A DNA stretch of 64,000 bases, from the NCBI RefSeq assembly GCF_015100155.1, contig NZ_JACKZA010000002.1, positions 62,001 through 126,000 on the forward strand, read 5' to 3'. The DNA comes from Acidithiobacillus sp. HP-2. GTDB lineage: Bacteria > Pseudomonadota > Gammaproteobacteria > Acidithiobacillales > Acidithiobacillaceae. The notes beneath the pieces are model-generated. The model saw nothing but the letters and a program-made list of their open reading frames with translations. It had not been told where the DNA came from and ran no database searches. The position numbers were made by a program, and so were the translations under genes. The stretch's first letter is position 1, and the number at the start of each line of letters is the position of its first letter. Below are positions 127-31,305 of the stretch, piece after piece.

Positions 127-142
127 TGGCCCATGAATTGCT
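127..142 (+). promoter_or_regulatory. Sigma-54 (-24/-12) promoter match upstream of nasS
   Basis: TGGCCCATGAATTGCT fits the sigma-54 consensus TGGCAC-N5-TTGCW, with GG at 128-129 and GC at 140-141, exactly ten bases apart. Transcription would start near 153, just ahead of the leader hairpin at 160-173. The same segment can also fold as a six-base-loop hairpin (132-147, loop ATTGCT), so one of the two readings must be coincidental for this transcript. Two similar promoters lie ahead of the transporter and the nitrite reductase gene. Confidence 0.6.
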
Positions 143-159
143 TTATGAAATGGCAGTCT

Positions 160-206
160 GGACAATGAAGTCCTCGCGCACCCACTATGGGGCGCGAGGT
201 TTTTTT
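160..206 (+). terminator. Leader hairpin plus intrinsic terminator upstream of nasS (putative NasT antitermination target)
   Basis: An 8-bp stem, 172-179 with 192-199, continued by CCCA/TGGG (181-184 with 188-191) after one bulged base, is followed by seven T (200-206): an intrinsic terminator in front of the gene rather than behind one. Just upstream GGAC/GTCC (160-163 with 170-173) closes a six-base loop AATGAA with A at position 1 and G at position 4, the ANTAR-protein RNA signature. Its 3' arm shares bases 172-173 with the terminator stem, so the two folds compete. Function is inferred from nasT in the cluster. Confidence 0.65.
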
Positions 207-234: not shown

Positions 235-1395
235 ATGAGCGGTGAAAATCTCAATATCGGTTTTGTTGCACTGACAGATAGCGCGCCCTTGATTGTGGCG
301 CGTGAGTTGGGTTTTTTTGCGGCTGAGGGACTCGCTGTCACCCTGCAAAAGGAGCCTTCCTGGGCCAGCTTGCGCGATCACCTGCTCTTTGGGGATCTGG
401 TGGCTGCCCATGCCCTGGCGCCACTACCAATGGCCGCAACGCTGGGAATTGCTTCCCCGAAAATACCGGTGAGCACTGCGCTGACACTTTCCCTGAACGG
501 GAATGCCATTACGGTCAGCAATGGTTTACACCAATGGCTCCGCGATACCGGATTTACAGGAGCGGAGCCTGCCATCGCCACCGCCCAGGCATTGCGCCGC
601 ATTATCGAGACAGAACCTGCCAAAAAATTGCGTTTTGCCGTCGTTTCTCCCGTATCCAACCATCATTATCAACTGAGGCACTGGCTGTGTGCTGCCGGTA
701 TTGATCCGGATCAGGATATTCAGATTACCGTGGTTCCACCCCGCCATATGGTTGCCGCGTTGCGCGCAGGAGAAATAGATGGTTATTGCGTAGGAGAGCC
801 TTGGGGAAGTCTGGCGGCTGCAGAAAACGTCGGTATTCCGATTATCGGCAGTTACGCACTCTGGAACAACCTGATGGAAAAGGTATTGGCCGTACGGAAT
901 GACTGGTCACAGCGCGAACCTGACTTACATCTGGCGATGATTCGCGCCATCCTGACTGCCAGTCTATGGCTGGATAACCCTCAACACCGCCTGGAAGCCG
1001 CGCCCTGGGTTGCCAACGCCATTGGTGTTTCCCGTGAAGTTGTGGCCATGGCATTAACGGGTAATGTCCCCGGTCTGGCTCAACAGGAAGATTTTCATGT
1101 ATTTGCGCGTTACTCGGCCAATTTTCCCTGGCATTCCCATGCCTTGTGGCTGGCTCGCCAAATGCAGACGGCGGGTCAATGGCCTCAAGGCGTGGACAGC
1201 GAGACATTGATTCCACAGGTATATCGTTGCGATATCTATCGGCAGGCGGCAAAGGCGCTGCGCCTTCCCGTTCCCAATACGGATTTTGTCGACTGGGGAA
1301 ATCACGCCCAATCCTGGCAGGTTCAGAGCGATGATGGGCATCCCATTATCATGGGACCCAACCTGATTTTTGATGGGAGCACCATCACCCGCTGA
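235..1395 (+). CDS. nasS: NasS-type cytoplasmic nitrate/nitrite-binding sensor protein
   Basis: 386 residues of the NrtA/NasS/SsuA-like periplasmic-binding fold (N-terminal pattern IGFVALTDSAPLIVARELGFF). There is no signal peptide or lipobox, which separates the cytoplasmic sensor NasS from the transport protein NrtA; no nitrate ABC transporter genes are nearby, which agrees. In characterised NasS/NasT systems NasS holds the RNA-binding protein NasT inactive until nitrate or nitrite binds. The ATG at 235 is preferred over the in-frame GTG at 223 because GGGAGG (225-230) sits at normal distance before it. The gene has its own leader terminator and lies about 11 kb from nasT, unlike the usual adjacent nasS-nasT pair. 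Confidence 0.85.
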   Translation: MSGENLNIGFVALTDSAPLIVARELGFFAAEGLAVTLQKEPSWASLRDHLLFGDLVAAHALAPLPMAATLGIASPKIPVSTALTLSLNGNAITVSNGLHQWLRDTGFTGAEPAIATAQALRRIIETEPAKKLRFAVVSPVSNHHYQLRHWLCAAGIDPDQDIQITVVPPRHMVAALRAGEIDGYCVGEPWGSLAAAENVGIPIIGSYALWNNLMEKVLAVRNDWSQREPDLHLAMIRAILTASLWLDNPQHRLEAAPWVANAIGVSREVVAMALTGNVPGLAQQEDFHVFARYSANFPWHSHALWLARQMQTAGQWPQGVDSETLIPQVYRCDIYRQAAKALRLPVPNTDFVDWGNHAQSWQVQSDDGHPIIMGPNLIFDGSTITR

Positions 1396-1451: not shown

Positions 1452-1527
1452 CCCATCACCCGCAGAATGCCCAGCAAAATCCCCGTGCACTGCCTAAAAA
1501 TAACGATTCAGAGTAACTTCGCAATCA

Positions 1528-1543
1528 TGGCATGGAAAATGCT
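1528..1543 (+). promoter_or_regulatory. Sigma-54 (-24/-12) promoter of the nitrate transporter gene
   Basis: TGGCATGGAAAATGCT has GG at 1529-1530 and GC at 1541-1542 with the required ten-base gap. The start of transcription would fall near 1554, five bases before the first leader hairpin. This promoter lies inside the longest open frame of the downstream gene and shows that its first ATG (1532) cannot be the translation start. Confidence 0.65.
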
Positions 1544-1558
1544 CTAGCCAACTCAGCA

Positions 1559-1628
1559 CTGTTCACCGATGAACAGCGTTTTGGGACGAAGGCGTTCCTG
1601 GCTCATGCGGGCCGGGAACGCCTTTTTC
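1559..1628 (+). ncRNA. ANTAR-type leader RNA with terminator ahead of the nitrate transporter
   Basis: Hairpin P1: CTGTTC/GAACAG (1559-1564 with 1571-1576) closes the six-base loop ACCGAT (A1, G4). Hairpin P2: GGGAC/GTTCC (1583-1587 with 1594-1598, one G-U) closes the six-base loop GAAGGC (G at position 4, but G rather than A at position 1). The terminator stem AGGCGTTCC with its complement up to 1623, ending in five T, uses the same bases as P2 (1591-1598), so P2 and terminator exclude each other. This is the geometry of NasT/AmiR-type leaders. Confidence 0.7.
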
Positions 1629-1660: not shown

Positions 1661-3067
1661 ATGAAAGAACTTTTAACCATGCTCCGAAGTGGAAACTGGC
1701 GCGCTTTGGTCGCCAGCTTTCTCTATTTCGACACGGGCTTTACTGTCTGGTTGCTGTATGGCCCGCTGGCCCCCTACATGATTCACTCCTTGCATCTGAG
1801 CGATGCGAAACAAGGCTTTTTAGTCGCAGTACCCATCCTCTCTGCGGCAATTTTACGCGTGGGCATGGGCAACCTTTACCAAAGCATGAATGGTCGCTGG
1901 CTGGCGCTGGGTGGTGTCGCACTATCCGCTATTCCGCCCCTTTTTCTGCTGCTTTATCCGGGTGTACCCGGTTACTCACTGCTCATCGTGCTCGGTGTGC
2001 TACTGGGTGTTGGCGGAGCCAGTTTTGCGGTTGCCCTGCCCATGGCCGGAAGTAATTATCCTGCCAAAGTGCAGGGAACCGTATTGGGCATAGCTGCTGC
2101 TGGAAACATTGGAGCGGTACTGGATGGTTTTCTCTTTCCACCCCTGGCCGCCCATTTTGGCTGGGCGCACGCAACTGCTGCCGCCCTGCCCTTGCTGGCT
2201 CTGGCCGGTGTGAGCCTGTTTTTCTGGGGCAAGGATAGCGCCCCCAAAAGCGGTCGGGTAAAACCCGCATTACTGGGCTTTGTGGTAACTCTGGCAGGTT
2301 TGGCAGTTCTGGCTGTAGCAACACCCATGGGTTGGTTGGGATTGCAGGGTAAAGCCGCTCTATTGATGCTACCCGTATACGGCGTATTGCTGACAGGGAT
2401 TTTTCTCCCGCAACGCTATCGACTGACCCTCCGCGAACGCGATACCTGGGTGATTATTCTGATATACGCCATCACCTTCGGCGGCTTTGTCGGCATGTCT
2501 GCCTATGTCAGCCTGCTCATGGTTACTCTATACCATTTGCCCAAAGTGGACGCTGGCATGCTGATGGCACTGTTTGCTTTTACCGGAGCCATGTTGCGAC
2601 CTTTGGGCGGTATGATTGCTGACCGGATCTCGGGTGCTGCTGCACTACGCTGGTTTTTAGGTGGTATCGCGCTGATGGATATGGTGTTTGCAACCTGGAC
2701 CCCGCCTCTGGATCTGGCCATTGGCTTCTTACTGATTCTGTATGCCTGCTTCGGTCTGGGAAATGGTGCCACGTTTCAACTGGTTCCCCTGCGCTGGCCT
2801 GAAAAAACCGGCATCATGACCGGTATTATTGGTGCTGCAGGTGGAATAGGCGGCTTTTATCTGCCCGTTATTCTGGGCATCACCAAGCAGGAAACCGGCA
2901 CCTATCACCTGGGCTTTGCCTTCTTCGCCGTACTGACGAGCATCGCACTGGGGCTGGTACTTGTCCTGCGCCAGCAGTGGTTAAGCTGGTCTCATCATGG
3001 AACGATGGCTGTAGCCATGGAGGAAACGCCCTCAGCTTTATCCGAAGCCAGCGCCGTTACTGACTGA
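1661..3067 (+). CDS. narK: NarK/NasA-type nitrate/nitrite transporter (MFS)
   Basis: A 468-residue major facilitator with about twelve hydrophobic segments. Two stretches match the nitrate signatures of the nitrate-nitrite porter family: GIAAAGNIGAV around residue 145 and FGLGNGATFQLVP around residue 370. It would carry nitrate across the inner membrane for assimilation; nitrite or antiport modes cannot be excluded. The start at 1661 follows the Shine-Dalgarno-like AGAGGGA at 1647-1653. A longer frame starting at 1532 would place promoter, leader hairpins and terminator inside the coding region and is rejected. The gene stands on its own attenuated transcript, with the porin gene 120 bp downstream. 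Confidence 0.88.
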   Translation: MKELLTMLRSGNWRALVASFLYFDTGFTVWLLYGPLAPYMIHSLHLSDAKQGFLVAVPILSAAILRVGMGNLYQSMNGRWLALGGVALSAIPPLFLLLYPGVPGYSLLIVLGVLLGVGGASFAVALPMAGSNYPAKVQGTVLGIAAAGNIGAVLDGFLFPPLAAHFGWAHATAAALPLLALAGVSLFFWGKDSAPKSGRVKPALLGFVVTLAGLAVLAVATPMGWLGLQGKAALLMLPVYGVLLTGIFLPQRYRLTLRERDTWVIILIYAITFGGFVGMSAYVSLLMVTLYHLPKVDAGMLMALFAFTGAMLRPLGGMIADRISGAAALRWFLGGIALMDMVFATWTPPLDLAIGFLLILYACFGLGNGATFQLVPLRWPEKTGIMTGIIGAAGGIGGFYLPVILGITKQETGTYHLGFAFFAVLTSIALGLVLVLRQQWLSWSHHGTMAVAMEETPSALSEASAVTD

Positions 3068-3187: not shown

Positions 3188-4432
3188 ATGCCTTCTCTGA
3201 AAAAAACTGCTGCGTATCTCGCCGTTATGAACGCTCTACTAATCACTTTGGCAGGAACTTGGGCCAATGCAGACACTCTGAGCGATGCCATTACCCAGGG
3301 ACAGGTTCATCTGGATTTTCGTCCTCGTTATGAATTCATGTCGCAGGCCGGGAAAAAAGATGCAAATGCCTTTACCGTACAGACGCTGCTGGGCATCAGC
3401 AGTAAACCCATTGCCGGTTTCAGTGCTGATCTGCAATTCATCAACGTAGCGGGCATCATCAACCAGTACAACAGCTTACGTAATGGCAAAACGGCGTATT
3501 CGGTTATTCCCGATCCGGATGAAAGCAACGTCAATCAGGCCTATCTGCAATATGCCGGCATTCCCGGATGGAAATTGCGTGCGGGTCGGCAGGTAATCAA
3601 TCTGGATGATGAACGTTTTGTAGGTGCTGTGGGTTTCCGCCAGACCCCCCAGACTTTTGATTCCGTATCCATCTCCGGAAAACCGATGAAGGATCTATCC
3701 ATTTATGGTGCCTATATATGGCGCATCAAGAATATACTGAATGAAAATGTACCCTCACAAACCATACTCAGCGAAATCAGTTGGTCACCGTCTTCATTCA
3801 TTCATGCTCAGGGCTTTGGCTATTGGTATGGCAACCAGGCACATAGTGCCATACCCGGTGCCGCCGCCTGTTTTTTGTCGGGAAACGCCCAGGTCTGCAA
3901 CAGCCAGACGCTGGGACTGCGGGTCGGGGGAGTTATACCCCTCACCCATACACTGAAACTGCCCTACGATCTGAGTTATGCCCGCCAGCTACCCTATGAC
4001 GGCGGCAGTGCGGCTATCAATGCCTCCTACTATCACCTGAGTGCCGGACTGGCACTGCCATCCGTTGCGCTCCATGCCAATTACATGGTGATGGGGGCCA
4101 ACCATCAGGGAAGCTACGGCTTTCAGACCCCATTGGCTACCAAGCATGCCTTTAACGGTTGGGCAGAGGTATTTCTTACCACCCCCCCAAAGGGGCTGCG
4201 TAGCCTTTACTTTACGGCTACTGGAAAAATCATGAAAACCCAACTGATGACTACCTATTACGATTTTCAGGCTGATCATGGCGCTGCCCATTATGGGAAT
4301 GAGCTGGATCTATCCGTAACCCATGGTTTTTCCAGACATTGGAGTGCCGGGGTGCAATATGCGGACTACCGGCGGAGCAGCTATGGGGTCAATACCGAAG
4401 GAGCCTGGGTGTTTGTCAATGCAAAATTCTAG
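3188..4432 (+). CDS. Outer-membrane porin, alginate-export/OprD-like type, in the nitrate cluster
   Basis: 414 residues with a cleavable signal peptide (hydrophobic stretch ending near ANA-DT, residue 29), alternating beta-strand pattern throughout and a terminal phenylalanine typical of proteins inserted by the BAM machinery. The region HLDFRPRYEF near the N terminus and RAGRQVINLDDERF around residue 135 are typical of the alginate-export-like barrel family. Placed between the nitrate carrier and nitrite reductase genes, it probably lets nitrate through the outer membrane; that role is inference from context only. GGAGA at 3176-3180 provides the ribosome binding site. No leader terminator precedes it, so it is probably co-transcribed with the transporter. 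Confidence 0.75.
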   Translation: MPSLKKTAAYLAVMNALLITLAGTWANADTLSDAITQGQVHLDFRPRYEFMSQAGKKDANAFTVQTLLGISSKPIAGFSADLQFINVAGIINQYNSLRNGKTAYSVIPDPDESNVNQAYLQYAGIPGWKLRAGRQVINLDDERFVGAVGFRQTPQTFDSVSISGKPMKDLSIYGAYIWRIKNILNENVPSQTILSEISWSPSSFIHAQGFGYWYGNQAHSAIPGAAACFLSGNAQVCNSQTLGLRVGGVIPLTHTLKLPYDLSYARQLPYDGGSAAINASYYHLSAGLALPSVALHANYMVMGANHQGSYGFQTPLATKHAFNGWAEVFLTTPPKGLRSLYFTATGKIMKTQLMTTYYDFQADHGAAHYGNELDLSVTHGFSRHWSAGVQYADYRRSSYGVNTEGAWVFVNAKF

Positions 4433-4450: not shown

Positions 4451-4467
4451 TGCACTAATTTGGTGCG
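4451..4467 (+). promoter_or_regulatory. NtrC-like binding site upstream of nasB
   Basis: TGCACTAATTTGGTGCG is close to the NtrC palindrome TGCACCA-N3-TGGTGCA, with 12 of 14 arm positions matching. A further half site TGCACCA starts at 4470. The sites lie 80-100 bp upstream of the sigma-54 promoter at 4550-4565, consistent with nitrogen-limitation control. Confidence 0.6.
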
Positions 4468-4549: not shown

Positions 4550-4565
4550 AGGCACATCTATTGCT
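4550..4565 (+). promoter_or_regulatory. Sigma-54 (-24/-12) promoter of the nitrite/nitrate reductase operon
   Basis: AGGCACATCTATTGCT matches TGGCAC-N5-TTGCW at all but the first base, with GG at 4551-4552 and GC at 4563-4564. The predicted transcription start near 4576 coincides with the beginning of the structured leader. Confidence 0.7.
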
Positions 4566-4575
4566 TAATAAGTTT

Positions 4576-4653
4576 CGAAGCGATTCGCGAGGATCGCCGG
4601 TATGCAAAACGGCAAAGGCGTCGTCAGCAATTCAGCTGACTGACGCCTTTTTT
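4576..4653 (+). ncRNA. ANTAR-type leader RNA with terminator ahead of nasB
   Basis: P2: ACGGC/GTCGT (4609-4613 with 4620-4624) closes the six-base loop AAAGGC (A1, G4). P1 is either GCGATT/GATCGC (4580-4585 with 4592-4597, loop CGCGAG, eleven bases before P2) or the shorter CGA/TCG with loop AGCGAT (4579-4584). The terminator pairs AAAGGCGTC (4614-4622) with GACGCCTTT (4642-4650), plus an inner GTCAGC/GCTGAC stem, and ends in six T (4648-4653). P2 occupies the 5' arm of the terminator, so stabilising P2 would allow read-through into the whole operon. Confidence 0.75.
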
Positions 4654-4672: not shown

Positions 4673-7117
4673 ATGCACATTACAGTTCCACGAAAACCCC
4701 GTCTGGTCGTTGTCGGCAATGGCATGGCAGGCATCCGTGCGGTCGAAGAACTTTTGAAAATGGCACCGGATCTTTATGAGATCAGCGTATTCGGTGCCGA
4801 ACCCCATCCCAACTACAACCGGATTCTCCTGACTCCAGTGCTGGCCGGAGAAATGACTCTGGAAGAAACCATCCTCAATCCTCTGGAGTGGTATGCCGAG
4901 CATGGAATCCAGTTATTTACCGGTAATCCAGTGACACGCATTGATCGGGTCAAACGCCAGGTTATTACCGCCGATGGCAAAGCGACCCCCTATGATCGTT
5001 TACTGCTGGCAACCGGCGCAGCCGCTGCCATGGCGCCCGTACCGGGAAATCATTTGCCGGGCGTTCTGAGTTATCGGGATATGGCGGATGTGGAAGCACT
5101 GACCAAAAGCAGCGCGCTCGGCGGTCAGGCCGTGGTCATCGGTGGCGGCCTGTTGGGACTGGAAGTTGCCCATGGTCTGCGGGCCAGGGGAATGGGGGTC
5201 ACGGTCATTCATCGTCGCGCCTGGCCTTTGGACAAGCAACTGGATCAACGGGGTGGTGTTCTTTTGCAAAAAGCCATGGAAGCCCGGGGCGTCCGGTTTT
5301 TGCTGGGTAAGGAAACCGCAGAAATTCTCGGCACGACGCATGTCACCGGACTGCGTTTCAGCGATGGCACGGAAATTCCGGCGGATGTGCTGGTCATGAC
5401 CATTGGCATCAAACCACGCATCGAACTGGCCCAGGCTGCAGGCTTACAGTGTGAAACCGGCATTCTGGTCAATGACACCCTGCAAACCTACGACCCACGC
5501 ATTTATGCCGTGGGAGAGTGCGTCCAGCATCGCGGTCAGACCTATGGTCTGGTAGCTCCCCTGTTTGAGCAGGCCAAGGTAGCCGCCAATCATCTGGCAG
5601 AATATGGACGGATGCGCTATCAGGGTTCCGTCACCAGCACCAAGCTCAAGGTTACCGGCATCGAACTGTTTTCTGCAGGGAATTTCACGGGCGGAGAAGA
5701 TTGCGAAGAAGTCACACTGCTGGACGGCAGCCAAGGGGTTTACAAAAAAGTCATCCTCCAGGAAAACAGGGTGGTGGGTGGCCTGCTCTACGGCGATACC
5801 AGCATCGGTCCGTGGCTGTTTCAACTCATGCGTGACGGCACCGACGTATCGGCCTTTCGGGATAATATTGTTTTTGGTGAAACCCATCTGGGGGATGCCG
5901 GTCATTCCGGAGAAAATCAGGCGGCGCGCCTGCCGGACAACGCCGAAATCTGTGGCTGCAATGGCGTGGCCAAAGGCAGCATTGTCAAAGCTATCCGCGA
6001 ACAGGGATTGTTTACTCTGGACGATGTACGCAAATGTACCAAGGCCAGCGCTTCCTGCGGTTCCTGTACCGGTTTGGTGGAGCAGTTATTGTCCAGCACC
6101 CTCGGCGGATTTTATGACAGCACCCCGAAGAAAAAGGCCCTGTGTGGCTGTACTGAGCTCAGTCATCAGGAAGTTCGTGATGCCATCGTCAAGGAAAAGC
6201 TCCTCTCGGTTCGCCAGGTCTTTGCTTATCTGGAATGGCGCCACCCCGCCGGCTGCGCCACCTGCCGTCCGGCCGTCAATTACTATGTGCGGACCGCCTG
6301 GCCCATGGAAGGTCTGGACGATCCGCAATCCCGCTTCATCAATGAACGGGCCCATGCCAATATTCAGAAAGACGGCACCTATTCGGTCATTCCCCGCATT
6401 TATGGAGGGGTCACCAGTCCTGCGGAACTGAAACGTATTGCGGAAGTCGCCGAGCGCCATCACGTCCCCATGGTGAAATTTACCGGCGGACAGCGTCTCG
6501 ATCTGCTTGGGGTAAAAAAAGAGGATCTGCCCAAAATCTGGGCGGAGCTGGATATGCCTTCGGGTCATGCTTACGGAAAAGCTTTACGTACCGTCAAATC
6601 CTGTGTGGGTAGCGAATTTTGCCGTTTTGGTGTGCAGGATAGTACCCGCCTTGCCATTGAACTGGAAAAAAATCTTGAACGCATGTGGGCACCCCATAAG
6701 GTCAAGCTCGCCGCATCTGGCTGTCCACGTAACTGCGCCGAGAGCACCATCAAGGACGTGGGGATTATTGGCGTGGATTCGGGCTGGGAAATCTATGTGG
6801 GAGGGAATGGCGGCATGAAAGTGCGCGCTGCTGATCTGCTTTGCAAGGTAAAAACCCACGAGGAAGTTCTGGAAATGGCCAAGGCATTTTTGCAGATGTA
6901 TCGGGAAGATGCCCAATATCTGGAGCGCACCGCGCCCTGGGTAGAACGGATCGGACTGGAAAAGATCAAGGCCACCATAGTCGACGACGCCAACACCCGA
7001 AAAACCCTGGCAGAACGCATGGATTTTGCCCTGTCTCAGGAAAAGGATCCCTGGAAGGAAGCTGTATCCGGCCGGCTGGATATTCACGCAGCCCCCATAC
7101 GCCGTATTCCGGCCTGA
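4673..7117 (+). CDS. nasB: Assimilatory NADH-nitrite reductase, large subunit
   Basis: 814 residues, a little shorter than typical NirB (about 845). Order: FAD/NAD(P) domains (GNGMAGIRAVEELL at the start; second Rossmann motif VIGGGLLGLEVAHGL near 160); a BFD-like [2Fe-2S] domain around 420-470 (CGCNG then CGSCTG); a second, shorter BFD-like module around 490-540 (CGC then CATC); and the siroheme/[4Fe-4S] reductase half with CVGSEFC and SGCPRNC supplying the four cysteines around 640-690. It reduces nitrite to ammonium in the cytoplasm. GGGAG precedes the ATG at 4673. First gene of a seven-gene operon controlled by the leader at 4576-4653. Confidence 0.93.
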   Translation: MHITVPRKPRLVVVGNGMAGIRAVEELLKMAPDLYEISVFGAEPHPNYNRILLTPVLAGEMTLEETILNPLEWYAEHGIQLFTGNPVTRIDRVKRQVITADGKATPYDRLLLATGAAAAMAPVPGNHLPGVLSYRDMADVEALTKSSALGGQAVVIGGGLLGLEVAHGLRARGMGVTVIHRRAWPLDKQLDQRGGVLLQKAMEARGVRFLLGKETAEILGTTHVTGLRFSDGTEIPADVLVMTIGIKPRIELAQAAGLQCETGILVNDTLQTYDPRIYAVGECVQHRGQTYGLVAPLFEQAKVAANHLAEYGRMRYQGSVTSTKLKVTGIELFSAGNFTGGEDCEEVTLLDGSQGVYKKVILQENRVVGGLLYGDTSIGPWLFQLMRDGTDVSAFRDNIVFGETHLGDAGHSGENQAARLPDNAEICGCNGVAKGSIVKAIREQGLFTLDDVRKCTKASASCGSCTGLVEQLLSSTLGGFYDSTPKKKALCGCTELSHQEVRDAIVKEKLLSVRQVFAYLEWRHPAGCATCRPAVNYYVRTAWPMEGLDDPQSRFINERAHANIQKDGTYSVIPRIYGGVTSPAELKRIAEVAERHHVPMVKFTGGQRLDLLGVKKEDLPKIWAELDMPSGHAYGKALRTVKSCVGSEFCRFGVQDSTRLAIELEKNLERMWAPHKVKLAASGCPRNCAESTIKDVGIIGVDSGWEIYVGGNGGMKVRAADLLCKVKTHEEVLEMAKAFLQMYREDAQYLERTAPWVERIGLEKIKATIVDDANTRKTLAERMDFALSQEKDPWKEAVSGRLDIHAAPIRRIPA

Positions 7118-12430: not shown

Positions 12431-13009
12431 ATGCATCGCATCGTCCTGATCGACAATAATGTGGAGCGTGCAGAAATCCTCCGCGAAGCCCTCGCCAGCG
12501 AAGGGCAGATCGTCGTGGATATTTTTGGCTGGTCAGCACTTTCCTGGCAACGTCTGGAAAACCTGCAACCCGATGTCATCATCGCTGAAGCGGGCAGTCC
12601 TGAACGGGACGTGCTCGAACACATCGTCTTCCTCAGCGAAACCCTGGAACTACCGGTCGTGGTGCTGGGCGCCCCTGAAGATGAAGACACCATGCGGCGG
12701 GCTATTCGTGCCGGGGTGGCCGCCTATGTTGCCCATGGCATTTCCGCCCAGGATATTGCCCCCATTCTCAAAGTGGCGGCGCTCCGCTATGCCGAATATC
12801 GGCAATTGCGCAAAGAACTCAAAGACACCCAAAATGCCCTCTCCGAGCGCAAGCAAATTGAAAAAGCCAAGGGCATCCTCATGCGCGACCTGCAGATTGA
12901 CGAAGCCGAAGCCTACCGGCGCATGCGGCGGCTCGCCATGGACAAAGGAAAAAAACTGGGAGAAATTGCCGAAATGATCATTACGGTGGGCGAAGCAGGC
13001 AGTTCCTGA
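12431..13009 (+). CDS. nasT: NasT, ANTAR-domain transcription antiterminator
   Basis: 192 residues: a receiver-like domain (1-120) and a C-terminal ANTAR RNA-binding domain (about 130-185) with the typical QIEKAKGILM and AYRRMRRLAMDKGKKLGEIA. The position where response regulators have the phosphorylated Asp reads VIIAEAGSP, so Glu53 replaces it, and the conserved receiver lysine is also not evident; NasT proteins are controlled by NasS binding, not phosphorylation. Predicted to bind the leader hairpins at 160-173, 1559-1598 and 4576-4624 and permit read-through. As last gene of the operon it would raise its own expression. Confidence 0.9.
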   Translation: MHRIVLIDNNVERAEILREALASEGQIVVDIFGWSALSWQRLENLQPDVIIAEAGSPERDVLEHIVFLSETLELPVVVLGAPEDEDTMRRAIRAGVAAYVAHGISAQDIAPILKVAALRYAEYRQLRKELKDTQNALSERKQIEKAKGILMRDLQIDEAEAYRRMRRLAMDKGKKLGEIAEMIITVGEAGSS

Positions 13010-30315: not shown

Positions 30316-31305
30316 TCACGCATCGCCGTCGCCCATGCGCTGGGCACGGGGAGTGAAATATACCCAGGCCGCCAGGAACAGGAAGGCGATGATGTAAATG
30401 TTGGTGGTACCCAGCACATCGCCTTTATTGGCCGTACTGCCGGGCAGATAAGGCGCTCCCCAGCCCTCCGCCGTCGTCCATACCCCGAAACTGTAGGCAA
30501 TACCCACAGGAATAATCCAGCGCATACCCCGTCCGATGAGCAGGAAAAAAGCAATGATACTTTCCATGATGGCGGCGACATAGCCGAAGAGCACCGGCCC
30601 TGCCAGATTGATCACGGCAATCACCAAGGAAATGTAGGCAGCAATCCAGGCGGGCTCTCCCGGAAGTGCCTGCTGCAGATAAGTCACGGCATTGTGTAGA
30701 AAATAGGGTTGCCACTTCCAGAATGCATCAAAAGCCCAAAGCAGCCCAAAGAGAATACGGGCAGTGTGCATGGCCGGGGCATACAAAGGCTTATGCGGGC
30801 TCTTGCTCAAACTCAGACCTTCCCAACTTCGGGACCAGATCACATAAACAAAACACAGCGCATAAATGATCGCCGTGCCCGGATCTGTGGCCCCTTGGGT
30901 ATAGGGTCCGCCAAAACCACCCACCGTACTCCAGAGCCAGAGGTTGTACAGCACCCCTACCCCGGCCAGAAAAGGCAAGCCCAGCCCGGTAATCAGGGAA
31001 ACCGCAAGAATGGCATCCAGCCCTACTGTTCCATAAGCCACAACATTTGGCCCTATGTGCTGAACGAGATTAGCCATCCAATGTCCATACTGGCTGATCC
31101 AGGCAGGCTGTCCACTCACCCAGTCCGCGTCAAAGCTCCCCAGAAAGTGGGCTGTATAGGCTGGATTAAACTGTAACCAGGTGTTGATCAGCCAGATCAG
31201 GCCGAAAATGATACGTACAAGGCCAAAAGCCAATCGGCGTTTATGTTCCATGGACATTGAGGATTTCATAGCATCTCGGAATAGGACCATTAAAAGAGGA
31301 TTCAT
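30316..31305 (-). CDS. Duplicated DoxX/DoxD-like integral membrane protein
   Basis: About 329 residues with eight or more hydrophobic helices. The two halves are related: VRIIFGLIWLINTWLQF, QPAWISQYG and GGFGGPYTQGATDPGTAIIYAL in the first correspond to ARILFGLLWAFDAFWKW, EPAWIAAYI and EGWGAPYLPGSTANKGDVLGTTNIYII in the second. The pattern recalls the DoxX/DoxD membrane family, some members of which belong to thiosulfate:quinone oxidoreductase in acidophiles. Function not assignable. Start uncertain: ATGs at 31314, 31305 and 31269 are all possible; GGAG precedes the first two. It is convergent with the multicopper oxidase gene. Confidence 0.6.
   Translation of the reverse strand: MNPLLMVLFRDAMKSSMSMEHKRRLAFGLVRIIFGLIWLINTWLQFNPAYTAHFLGSFDADWVSGQPAWISQYGHWMANLVQHIGPNVVAYGTVGLDAILAVSLITGLGLPFLAGVGVLYNLWLWSTVGGFGGPYTQGATDPGTAIIYALCFVYVIWSRSWEGLSLSKSPHKPLYAPAMHTARILFGLLWAFDAFWKWQPYFLHNAVTYLQQALPGEPAWIAAYISLVIAVINLAGPVLFGYVAAIMESIIAFFLLIGRGMRWIIPVGIAYSFGVWTTAEGWGAPYLPGSTANKGDVLGTTNIYIIAFLFLAAWVYFTPRAQRMGDGDA

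Follow-up and report, generated by a model that had tools for sequence, protein, structure and literature searches.

The leader in front of nirB in Acidithiobacillus sp. HP-2, at positions 4576-4653 of the window (the whole stretch of DNA analysed, 64,000 nucleotides), is very probably a transcription attenuator controlled by the ANTAR protein NasT. Taken as a whole, sequence comparison makes it reasonably likely that NasT controls such attenuators across the family Acidithiobacillaceae and that one hexaloop per leader with A at position 1 and G at position 4 (A1/G4) is sufficient; as a separate claim, that a single hexaloop suffices is evenly poised. The evidence comes from sequence, predicted folds, covariation, conservation and gene neighbourhood.

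Hairpins and terminator of the nirB leader

The nirB leader contains, on the plus strand, two hairpins 11 nt apart and an intrinsic terminator, in agreement with a sequence-only reading that had placed them at 4576-4653. The first hairpin, P1 (4580-4597; GCGATT-CGCGAG-GATCGC), has a conserved stem and a loop without A1/G4; the second, P2 (4609-4624; ACGGC-AAAGGC-GTCGT), carries an A1/G4 hexaloop. The terminator (4617-4653) begins inside the P2 loop and has 8 nt in common with P2, and the two folds are mutually exclusive. Positions 4577-4658 fold at -35.7 kcal/mol (z = -4.5), and none of 200 shuffled sequences folded as well.

P2 is present in all 21 nirB leaders of the order Acidithiobacillales, 19 from the family and two from other genera (L074 and L075), in a scan that required a stem of 4 and A1/G4. 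Within the family it is nearly unchanged and too conserved for double changes. Across 46 leaders (17 distinct), a set in which A1/G4 was fixed by the selection rule, its stem covariation score was reached by none of 500 shuffles. In the terminators of the 19 family leaders 99.1% of cells are paired and two pairs have changed on both sides; in their P1 stems the corresponding figures are 97.4% of cells and both-side changes at four of six pairs, with one leader (L073) misaligned at P1, yet counted as is. For P1 and P2 together, the covariation score was reached by none of 500 shuffles and the number of doubly changed pairs by two, in a control that can be inflated by related sequences. The covariation that the sequence-only reading had expected among relatives is thus found, in the P1 stem over 19 leaders and in the P2 stems over 46.

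A composite pattern drawn up after the leaders were known, consisting of a sigma54-like box, an A1/G4 hairpin with a stem of at least 4 and an overlapping terminator, occurs three times in the 64-kb window; 100 dinucleotide shuffles averaged 0.07 occurrences, with no more than 1 in any of them. A looser scan of the window gave five places. Three precede nasS, narK and nirB, and two, on the minus strand at 30605 and 8459, have no convincing promoter box.

Gene cluster and the NasT protein

The cluster reads nasS, narK, a porin-like gene (3188-4432), nirB, nirD, nasA, a YbiB-like gene, cobA, a cbiX-like gene and nasT. The first gene (235-1395, plus strand) matches NMT1_2 (PF13379, E-value 1.4e-75); its ATG is at 235, and the open reading frame list begins at a GTG at 223. 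From its family, its neighbourhood and the literature we infer that its product is NasS, the nitrate-sensor partner of NasT. The nitrate transporter gene narK (1661-3067, plus strand) matches TIGR00886 with an E-value of 4.2e-74, which is under the curated cut-off. Its likely start is the ATG at 1661; a mechanical open reading frame start at 1532 was rejected because it falls inside a conserved leader. The first gene after the attenuator, nirB (4673-7117, plus strand), matches TIGR02374 (E-value 1.9e-281). Ten named nirB relatives (L098-L107; 87-99% identity) are all Acidithiobacillus records except one "Proteobacteria bacterium". A similar cluster ending in nasT was described in A. thiooxidans in 2008 (PMC2607301).

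The operon closes with nasT (12431-13009, plus strand), whose product combines an ANTAR domain (PF03861, 1.8e-20) with a receiver-like domain (PF00072, 1e-07) and is encoded beside nas genes, as expected of a NasT-type regulator. Among the 31 genomes of the order, nirB is present in 21 and nasT in 21, both in 20 and one without the other in two: G010 has nirB without nasT on a contig that stops about 4.6 kb past nirB, and G020 (71% complete) has nasT without nirB. One nirB (L066; G007:C207:9317-11755) contains an internal TAG stop. The ANTAR match, a match to an Rfam family below its cut-off (see below) and the joint presence of nirB and nasT in 20 of 22 genomes all support the earlier placement of a NasT attenuator before nirB-nirD-nasA-...-nasT.

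NasT aligns with EutV (6wsh) at 5.3e-16 and carries counterparts of the EutV RNA-contact residues R142, K149, E160, Y164 and M172; we set the numbering offset of 2 ourselves and took the residue roles from PMC8934654. At the position of the phosphorylated Asp of EutV, NasT has Glu, in keeping with regulation through NasS and not by phosphate, following the comparison of NasS-NasT with AmiC-AmiR (PMC3795266). Inspection of the ANTAR alignment by eye revealed no change specific to the family's NasT that could account for the lost P1 signature. The NasT of one genome (G017; L093) has His where EutV has the Tyr stacking on G4.

The first hairpin of the nirB leader

The sequence-only reading had proposed a pair of A1/G4 hairpins, and on this point the relatives disagree with it: A1/G4 is found in none of the 19 family P1 loops, though the stem covaries. 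Twelve of these loops have six bases, namely CGCGAG (6), CGCAAC (2) and CATAGC, CACAAT, CGCAAT and CCCAAT (1 each); six have five bases, and that of L073 has four or six (CTGG or TCTGGA). G4 alone is kept in seven (CGCGAG six times, and TCTGGA) and is absent from 12. In the roughly 65 nt that precede the P2 loop, an A1/G4 hairpin was found in one of the 19 leaders, against a shuffle rate of 7.7%. Two alternative folds of P1 had been left open, and of these GCGATT-CGCGAG-GATCGC is the conserved one. The fold with loop AGCGAT (4576-4587) was dropped: its stem has 3 bp, it coincides with the predicted 5' end of the transcript, and its type occurs only in the four closest of the 19 family leaders, with AGCGGT in one.

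Because its stem covaries, P1 presumably does something. It is probably kept as a stem only and is no standard NasT recognition hairpin; the retained stem may protect the 5' end, affect timing or make a loop-independent contact. The loops GAAGGC and CGCGAG may possibly be tetraloops, closed by a G1-C6 or a C1-G6 pair.

The most serious alternative to our proposal is that the leader is an ordinary two-hairpin ANTAR target, in which NasT needs both P1 and P2 and still recognises a relaxed P1. We consider this rather unlikely, at perhaps the level of a contender worth keeping in mind. Both-side changes at four of six P1 pairs and the G4 retained in seven of 19 loops speak for it, A1 makes no protein contact in the EutV crystal (PMC8934654), and in actinobacterial ANTAR RNAs, where looser loops are known, loop positions 1 and 4 are described as only "more than 50%" conserved (PMC8164766). 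Yet in 12 of the 19 P1 loops G4 is missing too, six of the 19 are pentaloops, and the nasS leader has no room for a P1 from its predicted start.

Sister leaders of nasS and narK

The attenuator had been said to control the whole operon. This would hold for nirB through nasT; nasS and narK, which belong to the cluster too, each have a separate leader, at 127-206 and 1528-1627, respectively. The earlier description placed the nirB element correctly and omitted these sister leaders as well as the sigma54-type promoter.

The nasS leader contains a single hairpin (160-173, plus strand; GGAC-AATGAA-GTCC) with an A1/G4 hexaloop and a terminator (172-206, plus strand) that has 2 nt in common with it. 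An A1/G4 hairpin with stem GAC/GTC is present in all 18 family nasS leaders. In an alignment of 17 of them (L195, which differs upstream, was excluded), the loop varies at every column except 1 (A) and 4 (G). The A1/G4 pattern served to locate the nasS and nirB leaders, so this loop identity is partly by construction, and no family nasS gene failed the pattern. The hairpin stem has no covariation among the family nasS leaders.

Transcription from sigma54 promoters starts about 12 nt after the C of the -12 element. The nasS stem begins 11-20 nt past this C (12 in L192, by eye), which would leave at most about 8 nt before the hairpin and thus no room for a P1. An A1/G4 hairpin lies upstream of the hairpin in four of the 18 family leaders; in four of the closest ones, an A1/G4 hairpin with loop ATTGCT straddles the -12 box, before the point where transcription is predicted to start, and it would count against one hexaloop per leader if transcription began further upstream. 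In genome G029 of the order, nasS is preceded by a standard two-hexaloop leader (L009).

The hairpin and terminator of nasS bring up a second alternative, which we regard as improbable: terminated short leader RNAs, chiefly that of nasS, might bind NasT in trans, in which case the nasS hairpin need not relieve its own terminator. The overlap of 2 nt only fits this, an RNA that binds NasT would be sensibly placed before the gene of NasT's inhibitor, and EutX, proposed to bind EutV, would be a precedent (PMC8934654); the hairpins of nirB and narK, however, overlap their terminators by 8 nt, as attenuators do.

The narK leader has two hairpins, and here it is P1 (1559-1576, plus strand; CTGTTC-ACCGAT-GAACAG) that carries the A1/G4 hexaloop. 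The loop of P2 (1583-1598, plus strand; GGGAC-GAAGGC-GTTCC) has G1 and G4, and the terminator (1591-1627, plus strand) has 8 nt in common with P2. Among 18 leaders, P1 has changed on both sides at five of six pairs, a count that 146 of 500 shuffles also reach; its covariation score was reached by none of 500. A script found A1/G4 in the P1 loop of 16 of the 18; the exceptions are L192 (GACGGT) and L194 (AACGCT by eye, in a stem with one mismatch). With a pattern that held G4 fixed, G1 was found in the P2 loop of 16 leaders out of 18; in L192 and L195 this loop is AAAGGC, with A1. The loops of L192 thus swap the hairpin that carries A1. The inter-loop gap is 17 nt (16 in L195). One family genome (G017) is the sole one whose narK leader has A1/G4 in both loops.

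Counts over 19 nirB, 18 nasS and 18 narK leaders give every family leader at least one A1/G4 hexaloop, and usually one only, with two of the three leader sets located through A1/G4 and L194 judged by eye.

Predicted promoters

Upstream of the nirB leader lies a sigma54-type promoter box, AGGCACATCTATTGCT (4550-4565, plus strand), with a predicted start near 4576. By a loose pattern, all 19 family leaders have a -24/-12 box of this type, placed 46-50 nt ahead of the P2 loop. An NtrC-like dyad, TGCACTAATTTGGTGC (4451-4466, plus strand), is located about 100 bp upstream of this promoter, and a GCAC-N(7-9)-GTGC dyad is present upstream in 13 of the 19 family nirB leaders. The box of nasS, TGGCCCATGAATTGCT (127-142, plus strand; predicted start near 154), recurs in 17 of 18 family leaders; the remaining one, L195, differs upstream and has no box within the 45 nt searched. 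The box of narK, TGGCATGGAAAATGCT (1528-1543, plus strand), is conserved in the narK leader alignment. We take the boxes to be sigma54 sites and the dyad an NtrC site from their likeness to the consensus sequences. Conservation of the -24/-12 elements at fixed spacing, detected with loose patterns, and the presence of rpoN in the genome are consistent with these predicted promoters.

In one genus of the family, the -24 element of nasS is TGCA instead of GGCA (L190, L191, L193, L194 and, by eye, L192). A genome elsewhere in the class (L222, approximately 1501-1571, reverse strand) has a sigma54-like box ahead of a long hairpin that lacks a hexaloop. A 2025 survey predicted 66 sigma54 promoters for COG3707, the ANTAR group that includes NasT (PMC12316311).

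Relation to RF03032 and leaders outside the family

At Rfam gathering cut-offs, the window contains three tRNAs only, and RF03032 is absent. The nearest Rfam family is RF03032 ("narK"); in 601 bases around the leader, the match scores 31.7 bits (E-value 3.7e-4), below the cut-off of 43.2. The RF03032 promoter box, the place of P1 and P2 align end to end with the nirB leader, with differences in the P1 loop and in spacing. As printed on a member that scores 55.1 bits (taken at L037:1501-1567), the consensus consists of GGCaCAgcucUUGCU, a spacer, GGcagCC-AACGGC-GGcugCC, a linker and CGAC-AAAGAC-GUCG. We interpret it as a sigma54 promoter and, after it, an ANTAR P1/P2 of the standard two-hexaloop kind, and this, as a sigma54 promoter plus NasT target, would supply the RNA family's protein partner and promoter. 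In the literature searched, we found no paper naming RF03032 or the narK RNA; the paper that describes the family may already say this.

RF03032 exceeds its cut-off in two of 369 genomes of the class and reaches an E-value of at most 0.01 in 29 of them. Its other matches in the HP-2 genome, six of seven, are weak (E-values 0.8 to 9.6). Models of the narK (R2) and nasS (R1) leaders detect only their source leaders in this genome at E-values below 0.2, and neither finds the nirB leader at E-values up to 5; the models are narrow, so further targets in the genome may be missed. In the 369 genomes, R1 matched four, one of them the genome of HP-2, and by eye the other three matches have no A1/G4 hexaloop hairpin.

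The leaders from other genera of the order (L074 and L075) retain a standard P1, CCC-AAYGGC-GGG. Among 44 non-family leader candidates, the rule applied above to the family nirB leaders found an A1/G4 hairpin upstream of P2 in 40, eight of them with gaps above 42 nt, some of which are perhaps due to chance. This count drops terminators with fewer than 12 pairs or untypical loops; 79 of 372 rows passed, family leaders included. Half of the loci (22) were obtained via RF03032, whose model contains P1, and the other half (22) via a nirB search that is free of this bias, and each half has the upstream hairpin in 20 of 22. Loss of the P1 signature outside the family is therefore rare, not absent. 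Among the four leaders without a match to the rule is L035, where the stem under an AACGGC loop contains a mismatch. The non-family loci L025:1501-1611, L117:8880-8983 and L139:5503-5615 have an A1/G4 P2 and a terminator and, by the rule, no A1/G4 P1.

Proposed mechanism

In the mechanism that we propose, a shortage of ammonium would lead NtrC and sigma54 to initiate transcription near 4576. By analogy with Paracoccus, NasS would keep NasT when nitrate is absent, and the terminator at 4617-4653 would halt the transcript ahead of nirB. With nitrate present, freed NasT would bind the A1/G4 hexaloop of P2 and hold the P2 fold; the loop and 3' half of P2, which form much of the 5' arm of the terminator, would then be occupied, giving read-through into nirB-nirD-nasA-...-nasT. 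The other two leaders of the cluster, those of nasS and narK, would operate likewise. More tentatively, as a view that falls slightly short of being favoured, NasT of Acidithiobacillaceae may be capable of single-hexaloop antitermination, with the nasS leader as a natural one-hairpin switch right at the 5' end of its transcript, the P1 of nirB freed from recognition by NasT, and the A1/G4 of narK carried by P1 or P2.

It is very unlikely that attenuation is independent of NasT and the hexaloops are relics, for while the lost P1 signature of nirB would suit such an explanation, P2 is nearly invariant in 19 leaders, A1/G4 is fixed in otherwise variable nasS loops, and nirB and nasT are retained or lost together (20 genomes vs two).

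Our doubt that one hexaloop suffices comes from work on other ANTAR proteins. For NasR, a P2 by itself is a roughly tenfold weaker target than both hairpins together (approximately 12 vs 1 uM; PMC7496416), deletion of P1 from eutP lowered induction (PMC3369931), and a longer linker abolished antitermination in eutP (PMC8934654). The 2-nt overlap of hairpin and terminator in nasS, the lack of covariation in its stem, the covariation that the nirB P1 stem does have and the RF03032 score below the cut-off also count against the proposal.

Comparison with known systems

ANTAR dual-hexaloop antiterminator RNAs are known from eut leaders, nasF and amiE (Ramesh et al. 2012, PMC3369931). The leaders described here share with them the A1/G4 hexaloop, a short stem over an intrinsic terminator (by 8, 8 and 2 nt for nirB, narK and nasS), a nitrogen operon and an ANTAR protein encoded in the genome. 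They differ in that the nirB P1 is without A1/G4, nasS has one hairpin and the narK P2 has G1, so the two six-base loops, with A1/G4 in both, that define the dual-hexaloop RNAs are not found. That NasT binds these leaders and acts on them by antitermination is an assignment we infer from these sequence likenesses.

The closest functional parallel, with common gene content and expected nitrate logic, is NasS-NasT control of nas/nirBD genes in Paracoccus. There, nitrate frees NasT from NasS and NasT binds the nasA leader (PMC3795266), and a mutation in hairpin HI severely cut expression, whereas a mutation in HII did not (PMC5424462). Unlike in Paracoccus, the cluster described here has three attenuated units, each with a sigma54-type box and a degenerate or absent second hexaloop.

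NasS-NasT control of nirBD-PA1779-cobA in Pseudomonas aeruginosa was reportedly described by Romeo et al. in 2012. On the number of hexaloops, Walshe et al. 2022 considered one to be the minimal binding motif, allowed that single-hexaloop sites may exist, proposed that, for termination to be prevented, a dimer has to engage the two hexaloops one after the other, and called for further bioinformatic and experimental work (PMC8934654). The family leaders resemble their single-hexaloop sites in that a second standard hexaloop seems to be missing, and for the same reason they differ from their antitermination proposal, as there seems to be no second one for a dimer to meet. Single-hexaloop antitermination, if true, would contradict the requirement that both be met in turn. 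With a nasS leader that has no P1, a nirB leader that keeps a P1 stem without the signature and a narK leader with a changed P2, these are natural test cases, and the number of hexaloops that ANTAR proteins need for antitermination becomes testable with them.
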